From Streptosporangiaceae bacterium (GTDB taxonomy: Bacteria > Actinomycetota > Actinomycetes > Streptosporangiales > Streptosporangiaceae), in assembly GCA_025934635.1 (NCBI GenBank), contig JAICWX010000436.1, positions 1 to 6,140 of the forward strand: a stretch of 6,140 nucleotides of DNA, read 5' to 3'. The position numbers and the translations under genes are program-made. Below the pieces are notes generated by a model. That model was not told the origin of the DNA, searched no databases, and saw nothing but the letters and a program-made list of their open reading frames with translations. Each line of letters begins with the position of its first letter. Within the stretch, counting starts at the first letter, position 1. Below, piece after piece: positions 1-6,140 of the stretch.

Positions 1-27
1 TGTCCCGTCTCACTTGGCCTGGCGCAG
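1..27 (+). repeat. Left terminal inverted repeat
   Basis: Starts TGTCCCGTCTCA and matches the reverse complement of 6114-6140 at 23 of 27 positions (mismatches at 13, 17, 22 and 25). It contains the outermost copy of the 20-21 bp motif repeated at both ends. By Tn7 precedent this is where TnsB binds and cuts. Because tnsA begins just inside, this end corresponds functionally to the Tn7 right end. Confidence 0.9.
7..27 (+). repeat. Putative transposase-binding repeat, left copy 1
   Basis: GTCTCACTTGGCCTGGCGCA followed by G. It aligns with the copies at 27-45 and 57-77 and with both right-end copies. The family consensus is close to GTCTCASTTGACCTGRCGYA. The GTCTCA end faces the transposon tip. 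Assignment as a TnsB site rests on its repetition at both ends and the Tn7 precedent. Confidence 0.75.
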
Positions 28-45
28 TCTCACTTATCTGACGTA
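27..45 (+). repeat. Putative transposase-binding repeat, left copy 2
   Basis: GTCTCACTTATCTGACGTA, the same motif one base shorter than its neighbours: a gap after CTT restores alignment with the 57-77 copy. It abuts copy 1, sharing the G at 27, in the same orientation. Confidence 0.65.
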
Positions 46-56
46 TCCGGCGTGTC

Positions 57-77
57 GTCTCACCTGATCTGGCGCAG
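57..77 (+). repeat. Putative transposase-binding repeat, left copy 3, touching the tnsA start
   Basis: GTCTCACCTGATCTGGCGCA followed by G, differing from copy 1 at only 3 of 21 positions. It is preceded by TGTC, resembling the tip. Its last base is the G of the GTG at 77, one possible tnsA start. A transposase bound here would cover the upstream region of the operon, which suggests autoregulation as known for TnsB in Tn7. This regulatory role is inferred. Confidence 0.7.
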
Positions 78-886
78 TGCTCGCTAAGGTGCTGGCCCTG
101 CCTGGTCACGGCGTTTCGAGGTGGGATGTGCTGGTCAGTGCGTCTTCGGCGGCAGCGGATTCGCCGCTGGCCGCGGGGGTCGAGGTGGAGTTCACCGATG
201 TCAGCGGGTCGCGTCGGCGTGATCTGCTGGCGTCGTGCTGGGATGTGCGTTTCGAGGACGCGGTGGCGGTCCGCTCGTTCGGCTGGGCGGCCGGGCAGCG
301 GCATTTCCCTGGCTGGTGGTGGTCAGCGACGACAGGCCGGCACGTCGGCCATGAATCGTGGCTGGAGCGCGACCAGGTCATGATGCTGGACTTCGATCCG
401 CAGGTGGTGGCGTTCTCGTCGCAGCCGTTCTGGCTGGCCTGGATGGGAGGGGCGACCGCACGCAGGCATGCCCCGGACTATTTCGCCCGGCTGGCCGACG
501 GGACAGGCGTGGTGATCGATGTCCGTGCCGATGACCAGATTCCGGACAGGGACGCCGAGGTCTTCGGGATGACGGCCGATGCGTGCGCGAGTGTGGGCTG
601 GTGTTACCGGCGGGTCGGGACGCTGGCCCCGGTTCTTGCAGCCAATGTGCGCTGGCTGGCCGGGTACCGGCACCCGCGGTGCCTGGATCACGAGCAGGCG
701 GCCAGGCTGCGGGAGATCTTCGCCCGCCCGGCCGAGTTGCTGGCGGGCGCGCGGGCCGCGGGTGACCCGCTCGGCGTGCTGCCGGTGCTGTATCACCTGC
801 TGTGGGCCGGGGTGCTGGTCACCGACCTGGCGTCGGCTCGGCTGGACGCGGAGTCTGTGGTCACGGCCGGCGGGGGTGCAGGGTGA
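77..886 (+). CDS. tnsA: TnsA-like transposon endonuclease subunit
   Basis: Predicted to cleave the 5' ends of the transposon in a heteromeric transposase with TnsB. The protein is 269 aa, close to Tn7 TnsA. A restriction-endonuclease-like core is visible: a GWWWSATTGRHVGHESWLER segment (about 79-98) supplies the acidic residue (E93 or E97), followed by LDFDPQVV and a QPFWL stretch. Then comes HAPDYF with D134 and a DVR triplet at 148-150, giving the PD-(D/E)xK pattern with Arg in place of the usual Lys. The C-terminal part (about 190-255, from ANVRWLAGYRHPR) is helical and probably contacts TnsC or TnsB. The start is uncertain. GTG 77 has no clear ribosome binding site and abuts the left-end repeat; in-frame GTG 128 follows GAGGTGGG at a good distance and would give 252 aa with the nuclease core intact. 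The stop overlaps the next gene by GTGA. Confidence 0.88.
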   Translation: MLAKVLALPGHGVSRWDVLVSASSAAADSPLAAGVEVEFTDVSGSRRRDLLASCWDVRFEDAVAVRSFGWAAGQRHFPGWWWSATTGRHVGHESWLERDQVMMLDFDPQVVAFSSQPFWLAWMGGATARRHAPDYFARLADGTGVVIDVRADDQIPDRDAEVFGMTADACASVGWCYRRVGTLAPVLAANVRWLAGYRHPRCLDHEQAARLREIFARPAELLAGARAAGDPLGVLPVLYHLLWAGVLVTDLASARLDAESVVTAGGGAG

Positions 887-2964
887 GCGTGTCGCGCCCG
901 GCGGCGCTGGCTGCTGGTGACCGGGTGTGCTTCCGCGGCGAGGAGCGCATGGTGCTCAGGCTGACAGCCGGGGGTGCCTGCCTGCAGGGCCTGGAGCCGG
1001 CGGTGGCGCTGGCGGAACTCTTCGCTGATCCCGGCTTCGCGGTGGTGGCCTCGGGCAGCCCGGCCCCGCTTCCGCCGGAAGGGCTGATGGAGGGCCTGCC
1101 CGAGGAGGTGACCGAGCACGCCCGGTGGCTGGAGGGCCACATGGCCGAGGTGGTCAGCGGGCTGCCCGCTGATGCTGGCCCGGGAGCTGTTCCGAGGCCG
1201 GAGTACGACCCGGCGGTCACGTCACTGCGGCAGCGGGAGATCGCCAAGGCAGCGGAACTGCGCGGAGCCGGCCGTCCCGTGCCGCTGCGGACGCTGCAGC
1301 GGCTGCGGCGCAGGTATGAGACCGACGGCGTGTGGGGGCTGGTCGATCACCGGTTCACTCGGCAGGCCTCGCCGGCGGGCCGGGCCGACGAGCGGGTGGT
1401 AGCTGCTGTGCGCCGGGCGGTCGAGGAGGAAGCAGACCGGTCGACGGGCACCGTGGACCGGCTGCGCCGCAGGGTCGAGCAGATCCTGGCCGCCGAGCAC
1501 GGGCTGGAAGACGTGTCGCAGGTGATGCCGTCACGGGCGACGTTCTACCGGCTGGTGGGGCGGGTCTCGGCGGGGCGGCATACGTTCGGGTCGGCACGCA
1601 CCCGCCGGTCGCTGGCCAAGCGCCCGGACGGTCCGTTCGGGATGGTGACGGCGGTCCGGCCCGGTGAGTGGATGCAGATCGACTCCACGCCCGTCGACGT
1701 GCGGGTCGTGCTGGATAACGGCATGATCGACCGCGCTGAGCTGACCTGGCTGATCGACTGCGCCACCCGGACGATCCCGGCGGCGGTCCTGCGGCCCTCG
1801 ACCAAGGCCGTGGACGCGGCGCTGCTGCTGGCCCGCGCGCTGACCCCCGAGCCGATGCGGCCAGGCTGGGCCGACGCGCTGCGCATGTCCTGCTCGGTGC
1901 TGCCGCACCGGCGGCTCGCCAGGATCGATGAGCGCCTGGAGCATGCCGCTGCCCGGCCGGTGATCGTGCCGGAGACCATCGTGTGCGATCACGGCATGGT
2001 CTACATGTCCCAGGCGTTCCGGTCGGCCTGCCGGGCGCTGGGCATCAGTTTCCAGCCCTCGCACAAGGGATCGCCGTGGGAGAAGGGCATCGTCGAGCGC
2101 AGCCTGGGCTCGGTGGCTACCTTGTTCGCCCAGCATGCCGCCGGCTACGTCGGCTCCAGCGTGGAACGGCGCGGCAGGAACGCGGAGCAGGACGCTGCGT
2201 GGTCGATCATCGAACTGCAGGATCTCCTGGATGAGTGGATCGTGGCGGTCTGGCAGAACCGCCCGCACGACGGCCTGCGGCATCCCCTGATGCCGGGCAG
2301 GCCGCTGACCCCTAATGAGCAGTACGCCGCGCTGGTCGAGGCCGCCGGGTATGTGCCCGTCCCCCTGTCGGCCAGCGACTATGTCGAGCTGCTGCCGGTG
2401 ACCTGGCGGGCCGTCAACGCCTACGGCATCAAGATCAGCAACCGCAGGTATGACTGCGCGGCCCTCAACCCCTACCGCCACCAGGACTCGGGCGTGGCTG
2501 TGAGGAAGGGCCTGTGGGAGGTGCACTACGACCCGTATGACGTGACCCGGATCTGGGTCCGCGGCGATCACGACGCCGGCTGGATCACCGTGCCGTGGAC
2601 GCAGCTGAAGTCCGCGGCCGTGCCGTTCGGCGAGGCCACGTGGGACCACGCCCGCCGGCTGCTGGCCCGGCGTGGTGAGAGCCCGGCCACCGAGCAGGAA
2701 ATCGCGAAAGCCGCCGCTGCCCTTCTCGACAGGGCAGAGCAGGCGACGGCCGCTGGGGGCGGGCCTGCGAAGAAGGACCGGCGGGCAGCCGCACGGGCCC
2801 GGGCGACCGCCGCGCCTGCCTGGCCCCGCCCGGACGCCGGCCCGGCCGACCCTGCAACTGCGGCCAGCGAGCCTGACAACACCGAGGATGATGCCCTCCC
2901 GGCCGCCAGGATCACCCCGCTAGGGATCTTCGACCCGTTCGAGGAAGCGGGCAGGCCGTGGTGA
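883..2964 (+). CDS. tnsB: TnsB-like DDE transposase (Mu/Tn7 superfamily)
   Basis: Catalytic recombinase that would bind the end repeats, cut the 3' ends and join them to target DNA. The start chosen is GTG 883, which overlaps the tnsA stop and follows GGGGGTG at 872-878; an upstream in-frame GTG at 802 would overlap tnsA by 85 bp. This gives 693 aa, near Tn7 TnsB. Domains in order: an N-terminal region of about 110 residues; helix-turn-helix DNA-binding segments (about 115-225, including LRTLQRLRRRYETDGVWGL and a later ATFYRLV); and the RNase H-like rve core with D267 (MQIDSTP), D369 (VCDHG) and E405 (KGIVERSLG). D369 and E405 are separated by exactly 35 residues (DD35E). A Mu-type C-terminal beta-barrel follows at about 497-575. 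After it comes an Ala/Pro/Arg-rich linker and a distinct final segment, ITPLGIFDPFEEAGRPW, resembling the TnsC-contacting tail of other TnsB proteins. All catalytic residues are present, so it is probably active. Confidence 0.95.
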   Translation: MSVSRPAALAAGDRVCFRGEERMVLRLTAGGACLQGLEPAVALAELFADPGFAVVASGSPAPLPPEGLMEGLPEEVTEHARWLEGHMAEVVSGLPADAGPGAVPRPEYDPAVTSLRQREIAKAAELRGAGRPVPLRTLQRLRRRYETDGVWGLVDHRFTRQASPAGRADERVVAAVRRAVEEEADRSTGTVDRLRRRVEQILAAEHGLEDVSQVMPSRATFYRLVGRVSAGRHTFGSARTRRSLAKRPDGPFGMVTAVRPGEWMQIDSTPVDVRVVLDNGMIDRAELTWLIDCATRTIPAAVLRPSTKAVDAALLLARALTPEPMRPGWADALRMSCSVLPHRRLARIDERLEHAAARPVIVPETIVCDHGMVYMSQAFRSACRALGISFQPSHKGSPWEKGIVERSLGSVATLFAQHAAGYVGSSVERRGRNAEQDAAWSIIELQDLLDEWIVAVWQNRPHDGLRHPLMPGRPLTPNEQYAALVEAAGYVPVPLSASDYVELLPVTWRAVNAYGIKISNRRYDCAALNPYRHQDSGVAVRKGLWEVHYDPYDVTRIWVRGDHDAGWITVPWTQLKSAAVPFGEATWDHARRLLARRGESPATEQEIAKAAAALLDRAEQATAAGGGPAKKDRRAAARARATAAPAWPRPDAGPADPATAASEPDNTEDDALPAARITPLGIFDPFEEAGRPW

Positions 2965-4013
2965 GAACTGCCGGCGCGGAGCCGGCGCCGGGCCCGGCGC
3001 CGGCTCACTGGCACCGCCAGCTGACCACGCTGCAGGGCTGGCAGCAGTTCACCACCGACGTGCCTGACGTGCCGGAACTCCTGCCCGCACCGGTGCGCGC
3101 CGGCCTGGCAGATGAGCAGCGGTCCCGCTATGACGAGCACCGGCTGGACTACCACACGCGGCTCGGCGTGGTCGCCACCTCCACGCTGCGGCACGTGGTG
3201 AACACCGGGCGGCGGCTGGTCCTGCTGAACCGGCACGCCCTCAGCGCCCGCCGCGGGCTGATCGTCTCCGGCGCCGCGGGCACCGGCAAGACCACTGCGA
3301 TCACCCAGCTCGGCAAGACTCACCAGGCCATCGACCGTCTGCGGCACCCCGGCAGCGACCGGATCCCCGTGGTTTACGTCACCGTTCCGCCCGCCGCGAC
3401 CCCGCGGATGCTGGCCGTGGAGTTCGCCCGGTTCCTCGGCATCCCGGTCATGACGCGGGCGAACATCACCGATGTCATCGAGGCCGTCTGCGGGGTGATG
3501 ACTGACACGCGCACCACCGTGGTATGTGTCGATGAGATCCACAACCTCAAGCTCGCCACCCGCAATGGCGCCGAGGTATCCGACACCCTCAAGTACTTCT
3601 CCGAGCGCATCCCGGCCACCTTCATCTATGCCGGGATCAATGTCGAGCGCGAGGGCCTGTTCACGGGAACCCGCGGCCAGCAGATCGCCGGTCGCTTCAC
3701 CCTGATCCCCGCCACCCCGTTTCCCTACGCCGCCGAATGGCAGGGCCTGGTCGCCACCCTCGAGGACGCGCTGCGGCTGCACCTGCACCCGGCCGGCACC
3801 CTGACCAGCCTGGACCGGTACCTGCACCAGCGCACCGGCGGCATGATCGGCAGCCTGTCCCATCTCATCCGCGGCGCCGCGATCGAGGCCATCCTGGACG
3901 GCAGCGAGAAGATCACCCGCAAGCTGCTTGACTCCGTCGACCTCGACCACGCCGCCCAGGCCCGCCCCGCCCCGGCCGCCCCCGCCAGCCGGGCGCGGAA
4001 GAAGACCGCGTGA
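2961..4013 (+). CDS. tnsC: TnsC/TniB-like AAA+ ATPase, transposition regulator
   Basis: ATP-dependent adaptor expected to assemble on target DNA and pass the signal from the target selector to the TnsAB transposase. The protein is 350 aa, shorter than Tn7 TnsC and nearer the TniB size. Visible motifs: Walker A SGAAGTGKT (about 103-111, K110), Walker B VVCVDEIHNL (about 187-196, D191 and E192), a sensor-1-like FIYAGIN strand (about 221-227) and GRFTLIP (R245 a possible arginine finger). An N-terminal extension of about 95 residues (with HWHRQLTTLQGWQQF) may be the transposase-binding arm, and the C-terminus ends in an Ala/Pro/Lys-rich tail. Two adjacent GTG codons, 2958 and 2961, are possible starts. 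GTG 2961 is preferred because its GTGA overlaps the tnsB stop as at three other junctions. GAGGAAG at 2941-2947 and GCAGG at 2951-2955 are candidate ribosome binding sites. Confidence 0.93.
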   Translation: MRTAGAEPAPGPAPAHWHRQLTTLQGWQQFTTDVPDVPELLPAPVRAGLADEQRSRYDEHRLDYHTRLGVVATSTLRHVVNTGRRLVLLNRHALSARRGLIVSGAAGTGKTTAITQLGKTHQAIDRLRHPGSDRIPVVYVTVPPAATPRMLAVEFARFLGIPVMTRANITDVIEAVCGVMTDTRTTVVCVDEIHNLKLATRNGAEVSDTLKYFSERIPATFIYAGINVEREGLFTGTRGQQIAGRFTLIPATPFPYAAEWQGLVATLEDALRLHLHPAGTLTSLDRYLHQRTGGMIGSLSHLIRGAAIEAILDGSEKITRKLLDSVDLDHAAQARPAPAAPASRARKKTA

Positions 4014-4837
4014 TGACCGCAGATGCCGGCCCGCCGCGGCCGCTGCCCATCCGCCCCAGGCCCATGACCGGCGAGAGCCCGGCGTCCTACCTGCGGCGGC
4101 TAGCGCGCGCCAACCACCTGCGCCCTGCCTACCTGCGCCGTTACCTCCGTGAGCCAGGAAGCCCGGACACAATCAAGCTTGGCTGGCTCGCCGTCCTGGC
4201 CGGCCGCTCCCTTCCCGCGCTCGAACGCGCCCTGACCGGCGATCAGGCCAGCCCGGCCCGGCAGCACCCCCGCCAGGCCGGCAAGCGCGGGCTGTTCGCC
4301 GCTATCCGCCGCGACGCCCGCGACAACGGGCTGTCGATCCGGGCACTAGCTGACCGGCACGGCGTCCACCGGCGCACCGTCCGCCAGGCACTGGCCTCAC
4401 CGTGGCCCGCGCCCCGCAAGATCCCGCAGCGCCAGTCACGGCTGGATCCGTTCAAGAACGTGATCGACACGATGCTGTCCTCCCCGCAGCCAGCGCAGAA
4501 GGCCCCGCTCACCGCAACGCAGATCCACGCCAGGCTGATCAGCGAGCACGGCATGACCGGCGTCTCCTACTCCACCGTCCGCGACTACGTCGCTGGCCGC
4601 CTCCCCGCACGGCAGCTGACCACCCGGGACTCCCCGGCGCCCGGGCACGACGCCTGGCAGGCGATCACGCACCTGAAGGAAGCGCTGGAAGCGATGCAAC
4701 CAGGCATCGTCACCAGGCTCCGCCCGTACTTCGACGAGCTGGAACTTGCCATCGAGCAGGGCCCGGTCAGTGCTGCAGCAGACGCGCGCGAAGCGATGCC
4801 AGACCCGGCCCGGCTGCAAGGAAGGGAGCACGCGTGA
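4013..4837 (+). CDS. tniQ: TniQ-like target-selection protein fused to an IS21 IstA-like HTH region
   Basis: Likely target-site selector that works with TnsC. Residues about 11-75 look like a TniQ N-terminus: LPIRPRPMTGESPASYLRRL, then a helix TIKLGWLAVLAGRSLPALER. The usual TniQ/TnsD zinc fingers are missing, and the 274-residue protein has no cysteine at all. Residues about 91-195 instead resemble the DNA-binding region of IS21-type IstA transposases: a helix-turn-helix (GLSIRALADRHGVHRRTVRQ), a RLDPFKNVID segment, then LTATQIHARLISEHG and SYSTVRDYV as a second helix-turn-helix. No DDE catalytic core follows. A short helical C-terminus with DAWQAITHLKEALEAM (about 213-228) completes it. ATG 4013 is preferred, with GGAAGAAG at 3997-4004 eight bases upstream. 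GTG 4010, one codon earlier, overlaps the tnsC stop and is an alternative. The TniQ assignment rests on the N-terminal motif and gene order. Confidence 0.75.
   Translation: MTADAGPPRPLPIRPRPMTGESPASYLRRLARANHLRPAYLRRYLREPGSPDTIKLGWLAVLAGRSLPALERALTGDQASPARQHPRQAGKRGLFAAIRRDARDNGLSIRALADRHGVHRRTVRQALASPWPAPRKIPQRQSRLDPFKNVIDTMLSSPQPAQKAPLTATQIHARLISEHGMTGVSYSTVRDYVAGRLPARQLTTRDSPAPGHDAWQAITHLKEALEAMQPGIVTRLRPYFDELELAIEQGPVSAAADAREAMPDPARLQGREHA
4818..4828 (+). promoter_or_regulatory. Strong ribosome binding site for the 302-aa gene
   Basis: AAGGAAGGGAG lies five bases before GTG 4834 and inside the end of tniQ. It is the clearest Shine-Dalgarno-like stretch in the operon and fixes the start against the much longer open frame upstream. 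Confidence 0.6.
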
Positions 4838-5742
4838 GCGGCCCGAAGGGGAATCGTGGCGAAGAAGCGCTGCGCAAGCGGTTCGAGTCCGAGGAGCACC
4901 AGGCCATCGACGCTCTGGCACGATGGATCGGCCACCCCGCCGTCCGCGGCATCATCGAGCGGCGCCGCGTCGGCGCCGAGACAGTCGTGATGCCGATCGG
5001 GCGGCTGCTGACTGATCAGATCGAAGTGATCCGGTTCTGCTGGCACGTCTGCGGGATCGCCGGGATAGAGCCCGGCTTTGAACTCCGCAAGGGCGAGCCG
5101 TGGCTGCTCACCGCCAGCGAGATGAGCATGATCGACCGCGTTGAGGCCGACTTCCGAGGAGTCGTTCAGCTGGCCATCAACGAGCTCGAGGGCGCCGGGG
5201 TCGGCCTGGTTCCCACCTGGACCGGCGACCATGTGGTGGTCGGAGAGCTCCTTCTCCTGGACATCGAGTGGGACCTGCCAGCACGCGAGCTTGCCGAGTC
5301 TCTCCAGCCGCCGGCGATCGGCGCGATCCATGTCGATGCCTCCGGCACGATCCACCGGCGCGGCAGCGGAGAGCGCGCCAACAACAACATCGGCGCGCTA
5401 CGCCGCGCCTACGAACGACACCGTTACGGCCCGCCACCGCGAGCGCCTTACGCCGACGGCGGCACGCGTGCCCTGCCCAAGCCAACCCTGCGCCGCCGGC
5501 AGGCACTGGCCAGGGTCTGCGAGCAATGGCCAGGCGTCACCGCCTCGCAGATCTTCACCACGTTCGGCGACCACGGAGTGCAACGCGGCGGCCAGGCCAG
5601 GACTCCCGGCGGTTACCTGCGCCAGCTGCTCGAAAAAGGCGCCGGACCAGGCGCAATCGTGGACCGCCCAGCCAAGAGCACCCTCTATGACGATCTCAGG
5701 GCACTGCGGGCTGCCCCGGCAGACCAGAAACAGTCCGGGTGA
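4834..5742 (+). CDS. Unrecognised 302-aa protein of the transposition operon (TnsE position)
   Basis: I do not recognise this protein family. GTG 4834 is the best start: it overlaps the tniQ stop by GTGA and follows AAGGAAGGGAG (4818-4828). The open frame extends back to 4402, but that would overlap most of tniQ. The product is probably cytosolic, with no signal peptide or membrane segment. It has a charged N-terminus (about 1-50), a mixed alpha/beta middle (about 50-175, with GELLLLDIEWDLP at 137-149 and AIGAIHVDASGTIHRR at 161-176), and NNNIGALRRAYERHRYG at 183-199. After a Pro-rich linker the C-terminal part (about 216-292) looks helical and basic: LRRRQALARVCEQWPGVTAS, then RTPGGYLRQLLEKGAG and STLYDDLRALR, which could be a DNA-binding fold. 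Its place as fifth co-translated gene after tnsA-tnsB-tnsC-tniQ suggests a second target selector, a TniQ partner or a regulator. No similarity to TnsE was seen, so the function stays open. Confidence 0.8.
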   Translation: MSGPKGNRGEEALRKRFESEEHQAIDALARWIGHPAVRGIIERRRVGAETVVMPIGRLLTDQIEVIRFCWHVCGIAGIEPGFELRKGEPWLLTASEMSMIDRVEADFRGVVQLAINELEGAGVGLVPTWTGDHVVVGELLLLDIEWDLPARELAESLQPPAIGAIHVDASGTIHRRGSGERANNNIGALRRAYERHRYGPPPRAPYADGGTRALPKPTLRRRQALARVCEQWPGVTASQIFTTFGDHGVQRGGQARTPGGYLRQLLEKGAGPGAIVDRPAKSTLYDDLRALRAAPADQKQSG

Positions 5743-5861
5743 ATCATCCGGCAACATTCAGCCGAACGACCCGTCTTCCATCCTTTCTCTCGTAAGCGCA
5801 GCCGGCGGTCCCGGGCCCAGGCCGCTGACAACACCGCGACCAGCGAGAGGATCAGGAAGAT
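5743..5861. other. 119-bp intergenic stretch between the operon and the small membrane gene
   Basis: This is the only internal gap between genes. It holds a pyrimidine-rich run (CTTCCATCCTTTCTCTC, 5775-5791) and an imperfect GC hairpin at 5805-5825 (GCGG...CCGC arms) without a following T tract. No confident promoter was identified. The break from the tight GTGA coupling suggests that the last gene is expressed or was acquired separately. Confidence 0.4.
5854..5859 (+). promoter_or_regulatory. Candidate ribosome binding site for the 62-aa gene
   Basis: AGGAAG sits just before ATG 5862. The spacing is short (two bases after the last G), but the GAGAGG at 5845-5850 is an alternative with longer spacing. 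Confidence 0.4.
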
Positions 5862-6050
5862 ATGCCCGCAGAAAACGAGAGCCGGCAGCCACCGGCCAGC
5901 GGCCGTGATCCCTGGTGGGTCGCCGCCGCCGGTGGCGGAGGCGGCATAGTAGCGGCAATCCTGCAAGACCACGCCCTCGGATGGGCGATCGTCGCCGCAT
6001 TCACCGCCTGGCTCATCCACAACATCGTGATCACCTGGCTGTCAAGGTAA
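5862..6050 (+). CDS. Small two-helix membrane protein, function unknown
   Basis: A 62-aa product with ATG at 5862 preceded by AGGAAG (5854-5859) and GAGAGG (5845-5850), and a TAA stop. The first 17 residues are polar, followed by a hydrophobic helix at about 18-34 that includes five consecutive glycines (24-28). A short QDHALG turn leads to a second hydrophobic helix at about 41-60 (WAIVAAFTAWLIHNIVITWL). The likely topology is a helical hairpin in the cytoplasmic membrane with both ends on one side. It is the only gene not coupled to the transposition operon, so it is the one candidate passenger. Small hydrophobic proteins of this type include holins, toxins and membrane anchors, but no specific motif identifies it. 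Its plausible start, ribosome binding site and clean ending just inside the transposon end argue that it is real. Confidence 0.55.
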   Translation: MPAENESRQPPASGRDPWWVAAAGGGGGIVAAILQDHALGWAIVAAFTAWLIHNIVITWLSR

Positions 6051-6071: not shown

Positions 6072-6135
6072 CGTCTCAGTTGACCTGACGCACCGCACAT
6101 CACCGAGTTAGTCCTACGTCAGGTCAACTGAGACG
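6072..6135. repeat. Large inverted repeat at the right end
   Basis: The arms at 6072-6092 and 6115-6135 are complementary at 20 of 21 positions around a 22-base loop (6093-6114). The arms are the two right-end copies of the terminal repeat in head-to-head arrangement. A transcript crossing this region could fold into a stable hairpin. No T tract is seen on either side, so an intrinsic terminator is not clear. Confidence 0.8.
6073..6092 (+). repeat. Inner right-end repeat in inverted orientation
   Basis: GTCTCAGTTGACCTGACGCA, matching the terminal right copy (read on the other strand) at 19 of 20 positions. Its GTCTCA end faces the transposon interior, opposite to the terminal right copy and parallel to the left-end copies. 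If it is a transposase site, it is oriented backwards relative to its end. Confidence 0.7.
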
Positions 6136-6140
6136 GGACA
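6114..6140 (-). repeat. Right terminal inverted repeat with terminal transposase site
   Basis: Reads TGTCCCGTCTCAG... on the minus strand and matches the left tip at 23 of 27 positions. The 20-base motif copy occupies 6115-6134. This is the only correctly oriented copy seen at this end, against three at the left end. Confidence 0.9.

Follow-up and report, generated by a model that had tools for sequence, protein, structure and literature searches.

Several described systems are close to the protein considered here, a proposed target selector of a Tn7-like transposon. TnsD of Tn7 is described as recognizing a site at +23 to +58 from the insertion point, its binding depending on a CCCH zinc finger (PMC2918618). 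The TniQ-TnsF selectors of Tn6022 are described as taken from another recombinase, in one case fused to TniQ, with a tyrosine recombinase that recognizes comM as the source of TnsF; IS21, according to a figure legend of that paper, is not reported with a target selector (PMC10293859). We analyzed a 6,140-bp stretch of DNA from a Streptosporangiaceae bacterium (GCA_025934635.1, contig JAICWX010000436.1; hereafter, the window), the whole of which is one complete Tn7-like element bounded by inverted repeats, a fact that the first-pass annotation of this DNA had overlooked. Its genes run in the order tnsA-tnsB-tnsC-tniQ-istA, as in its relatives, and the tniQ-istA product is a variant of Tn7-like target selectors: judging from sequence, the zinc-finger part of a TniQ protein is replaced by a putative DNA-binding region of the IS21 IstA type. 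We found no literature report of such a TniQ-IstA fusion.

The open reading frame (ORF) at 4013-4837 on the forward strand encodes 274 residues with, as had been claimed, no cysteine among them, and the core zinc finger of TniQ/TnsD proteins is therefore absent. The suggestion of a TniQ-like N-terminus proved correct, since PF06527 matches residues 12-89 above its Pfam gathering cut-off (31.7 bits versus 27), covering the first 88 of 142 profile positions and ending at residue 89. Residues 99-211 match the IS21 transposase model NF033546 (63.3 bits, E 2.6e-17) over profile positions 1-115 of 294; the cut-off of 160 set for the full-length model is not reached, which is no surprise for a segment that lacks the catalytic core. 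Likewise, Pfam and NCBIfam profile searches gave no integrase-core match to a DDE catalytic domain in the protein, in line with the first-pass view that this core is missing. The IstA-like order of helix-turn-helix (HTH) motifs was also found where it had been placed, with HRRTVR at residue 119, SRLDPFK at 142 and SYSTVR at 185. General HTH families match this region too, HTH_23 above its cut-off (26.9 versus 24.6 bits), but the strongest family match is the IS21 transposase (E 2.6e-17 versus 4e-6 for the best general HTH family), which argues for IstA rather than a common regulator family. Solved IstA structures (8q4d, 8b4h) match residues 92-153 at E 4e-5, and at E 1.6e-7 when the family profile is used. 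Against plasmids, tblastn matched 168 records, 40 of them at 60-80% identity, and the plasmid matches listed are 60-66% identical over residues 94-198, some annotated as istA and others unannotated. Arg120/Arg121 of the window protein align, counted by hand, with Arg31/Lys32 of IstA, which are described as contacting DNA (PMC10122671). The structure predicted for the protein alone agrees with these domain matches. Because both the zinc-finger feature and the IstA catalytic core are missing, the protein counts neither as an ordinary TniQ nor as IstA.

Set beside the described systems, the window's TniQ-IstA resembles TnsD in its TniQ-type N-terminus next to tnsABC and in insertion at a set distance from a conserved sequence with a 5-bp duplication (both as seen in relatives), but differs in that it is free of cysteine and carries an IstA-type double HTH where TnsD has a zinc finger. 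Its short TniQ module recalls TniQ of type V-K CRISPR-associated transposons, in that 8ea3 chain Q, which we take to be TniQ, aligns to residues 12-76. Unlike that TniQ, it carries a predicted DNA-binding region of its own, and no CRISPR gene was seen among the family matches of the window ORFs. With TniQ-TnsF it shares a selector derived from another recombinase, although it draws on the end-binding part of a DDE transposase and the arrangement is that of a whole family. The succession of HTH-1, linker and HTH-2 is that of IS21 IstA, with 60-66% identity in the best plasmid matches, whereas the protein has no match to the IS21 model's DDE catalytic part and carries the region fused behind a TniQ module.

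The relatives are an actinobacterial family of TnsABC elements, many of them site-directed. At E ≤ 1e-3, 918 proteins match (the best 120 are listed), and 28 aligned members have the first ~190 residues in common, followed by a variable tail, with conserved columns in both modules. TniQ was matched in all 28 at E ≤ 0.01, not always above the Pfam cut-off, and IS21 in 18 of the 28 at the same threshold. A locus scan with three peptide patterns and one genome per species gave 47 loci (numbered with an L below), of which 11 are IS21 loci; of the remaining 36, all but one have one or more tns genes. The absence of cysteine did not hold up as a trait of the family: only 8 of the 47 rows lack it and 14 have CxxC, mostly the CFLC/CYLC of the TniQ module (by eye). 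At E ≤ 1e-30, matches occur in 12 of 200 Streptomyces-family genomes, and one of the 13 matches is an IstA gene. A further 23 TnsC loci comprise 13 with a zinc-finger-type TniQ bearing cysteine/histidine pairs (by eye), one with TniQ-IstA (L149), one with a many-cysteine TniQ module (L150) and eight in which a pattern search found no TniQ-like ORF. Zinc-finger, IstA-type and cysteine-rich partners together indicate that DNA-reading parts of different kinds are attached to similar TniQ modules. Other compositions were noted as well. Beside TniQ-IstA, L009 (9879-10409; TniQ match below cut-off) and L019 (10633-11253) have another TniQ module that runs into cysteine-rich sequence, while in L042 (about 9989-10522) a TniQ module is joined to cysteine-rich sequence instead of the IstA-type part. 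In three family members (P0048, P0037, P0022), the TniQ-IstA part is followed in the Pfam listing by ankyrin, HIT or acetyltransferase domains.

Insertion sites differentiate these relatives from randomly inserting elements. The relatives were found by protein searches blind to their flanks, yet on first inspection 13 of 26 left flanks had the start of acnA in common, and of the 37 loci whose left flank can be read, 26 fall at one of three sites (tallied by hand); 7 of the 11 others are without a duplication confirming the element ends. At the acnA site, where 16 elements are inserted upstream of the gene, the end of the palindrome TATCTCGATGTCGAGATA lies 41-47 bp from the element left end (mean 42.8, standard deviation [SD] 1.6, n=16, with L042 counted by eye), whereas the distance from the acnA start is 151-203 bp (SD 11.8, n=15 measured). 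This tight spacing to one and variable distance to the other suggest that insertion tracks the palindrome region, not the gene start. In a sample of 41 Streptomyces-family genomes, 27 of the 30 best acnA loci contain the exact palindrome, and in one of these (L112) element-like sequence adjoins it (by eye). The second site, TACGTTGACATG, is present at eight loci, with 68-71 bp from motif start to left end in all seven measured; in L033 the gene starting at this site is a DUF317 gene (PF03771). A third motif, TGGTGAACAT, is 46 bp away in both L137 and L142, and a target duplication was looked for in L142 and not found. Exact 5-bp duplications occur in several relatives, for example L005, L017, L030, L034, L135 and L136. 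The proposal of site-specific insertion thus stands for the relatives, whose sites are non-random and at fixed spacing to three motifs; the window's nearest located relatives, L001 and L135, sit at different sites. Two acnA-site elements have a second TnsABC element stacked beside them (L015, 6190 to about 19200; L023, from about 11995).

That relatives of the same layout lie at fixed distances from a few sites suggests that the swapped part helps set the address. Three compact elements (L034, L135 and L136, at 4507, 4457 and 4519 bp) are taken up by tnsABC and tniQ-istA; neither another selector gene nor gene 5 (the gene that follows tniQ-istA in the window) is present in them. Furthermore, L137, L138, L141 and L142 have TnsC proteins 82-92% identical to those of acn-site elements, together with TniQ-IstA of other types (L137 being compared through L138, L142 and the tree), and no acn gene was found within the 14-19.5 kb fetched around them. 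The TniQ and TnsC trees position L137, L138 and L141 differently; L142 is not in the trees, and L141 is damaged, its left end not found. Over all three site labels, the TniQ tree needs 5 changes and the TnsC tree 7. Several observations weigh against a simple code: the TniQ-IstA proteins of acn-site elements do not form a single clade (5 changes, versus 10.9 in shuffles), the acn label requires 6 changes in the TnsC tree versus those 5 in the TniQ tree, and residues at the IstA contact positions vary among acn-site proteins. It is the four exceptional elements and the compact ones, not whole trees, that favor TniQ-IstA over TnsC.

Taken together, TniQ-IstA is probably the target selector of this actinobacterial Tn7-like transposon. 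The short TniQ module (residues 12-89) would recruit TnsC, while the IstA-type double HTH and linker (residues 99-211) would read the target DNA, substituting for the zinc finger and presumably also the second helical domain found in ordinary TniQ/TnsD; TnsC would then direct TnsAB to insert at a set spacing from the site so bound, with a 5-bp duplication as the result. If so, this is a natural way to re-address a Tn7-like transposon, by keeping the short TniQ adaptor and swapping in the compact double HTH of another transposase. Modular target choice could then be put directly to the test without CRISPR components, using proteins of ~200 residues and two natural sites, the acnA upstream region and TACGTTGACATG, whose spacing comparison has already fixed. 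By analogy with its relatives, the window's own copy may work as a site selector too. The features of the window are as follows.

1-27, forward strand: left terminal inverted repeat, starting TGTCCCGTCTCA; 27 nt, 85% complementary to 6114-6140
7-78, forward strand: left-end GTCTCA repeats at 7, 27 and 57, probable TnsB binding sites
77-886, forward strand: tnsA, TnsA-like endonuclease subunit, exact start uncertain; NCBIfam NF033179 (TnsA_like_Actin), E 6.3e-92
892-2964, forward strand: tnsB, DDE transposase with Mu C-terminal domain, exact start uncertain; PF09299 above cut-off, PF00665 (integrase core) slightly below
2958-4013, forward strand: tnsC, AAA+ regulator (TniB/TnsC); PF05621, E 3.9e-16; overlaps tnsB and tniQ-istA
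4013-4837, forward strand: tniQ-istA, cysteine-free TniQ/IstA composite of 274 residues, proposed target selector
4046-4279, forward strand: TniQ module, residues 12-89
4307-4645, forward strand: predicted IstA-like DNA-binding region, residues 99-211 (HTH-1; SRLDPFK linker, 4436-4456; HTH-2)
4640-4816, forward strand: C-terminal helical tail, residues 210-268; AlphaFold2 (AF2) model, block predicted local distance difference test (pLDDT) 50-85; relatives have other tails
4834-5742, forward strand: gene 5, conserved; overlaps tniQ-istA by GTGA; 89 homologues
5862-6050, forward strand: small ORF of 62 aa (ORF call only)
6072-6135, no strand assigned: right-end repeats, a 19-nt unit in two inverted copies (6072-6090, 6117-6135)
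6114-6140, reverse strand: right terminal inverted repeat

The Tn7-like character of the element is seen in its TnsB-type DDE transposase, TnsC-type ATPase and TnsA-type endonuclease, and in TGT...ACA terminal inverted repeats with internal repeats, GTCTCA being present inside both ends. Unfortunately, the contig ends exactly at the inverted repeats and flanking DNA is absent, which makes the window's own insertion site unreadable. This abrupt end is also what an assembler would leave of a repeat present at several sites, and it fits a different reading, unlikely in our judgment, in which the window's clade has lost fixed targeting: TniQ-IstA would still activate TnsC, with loose insertion mostly into mobile or dispensable DNA. 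The positions of L001, L135 and L003 at three different places are consistent with such a loss, but these are the only three sites seen, the domain tree puts the clade's IstA-like region next to IstA, and a presumed IS21 terminal repeat is found 37 bp from L135. The last observation raises a separate lead, which we consider rather doubtful: in the window's clade, the IstA-derived region may still read IS21 terminal repeats, and the element may home to resident IS21 copies as landing pads. One transposon would then be exploiting another's end-recognition domain to use that other as its landing pad. L135, which encodes a TniQ-IstA that by eye is identical to P0082 (listed as Parafrankia irregularis TniQ), is inserted at an istB stop codon (PF01695, E 8.9e-65), with the duplication GTCAA. 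In the IS21 end there, three similar 19-nt units occur at spacings of 23 and 45 bp; the middle unit departs from the pattern at 3 positions, and the inner unit ends 37 bp from the element left end. Some other actinobacterial IS21 copies have repeats upstream of istA at spacings of 23-24, 46 or 70 bp, and this similar spacing is why we read the units as probable IS21 terminal repeats, the other IS21 end being lost. The position of L135 beside them is a single hint of IS21 homing, and it comes from one case only. Against it, L001, the tree sister of L135, sits elsewhere even though its Frankia genome holds an uninterrupted stretch 90% identical across the L135 junction, with a copy of that IS21 end. 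Moreover, mobile elements often land in each other.

Alternatively, the IstA-like region could bind the transposon's own ends or promoter, in synapsis or autoregulation, with the target chosen by TnsC, by gene 5 or by a host protein at the acnA palindrome, for which TamR is a candidate. We think this quite improbable, although binding transposon ends is described as the normal role of IstA (PMC10122671). Left-end units like TTGATCTGGCCCC (L009, about 5751-5830; window, 57-78) do resemble IS21 repeats (CTGATCTGGCCCC), gene 5 has a weak HTH-like end, and the TnsC tree fits the acn label nearly as well as the TniQ tree does. However, a weight matrix of 17 IS21 repeats gave its top score at an inner position in all nine elements scanned, the window included; gene 5 is missing from L034, L135 and L136; and elements whose TnsC is close to the acn group sit elsewhere. 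That the fusion is a stray or decayed gene without function seems extremely improbable: several copies are frameshifted or truncated (L041, L045, L046), but the 918 homologues, the conserved columns in both modules and the operon overlaps speak against it.

Downstream of tniQ-istA, Pfam and NCBIfam profile searches gave no family match for the small ORF. The AF2 model of gene 5 is mostly helical (pLDDT 84.5), the weak HTH-like part being its C-terminus, and several gene 5 homologues are on contigs that match window-like TniQ contigs in size (8683, 84229 and 7238). A 78-kb contig from a viral collection (L172) also carries a TnsABC and TniQ-IstA element, with an internal gap in tnsC.
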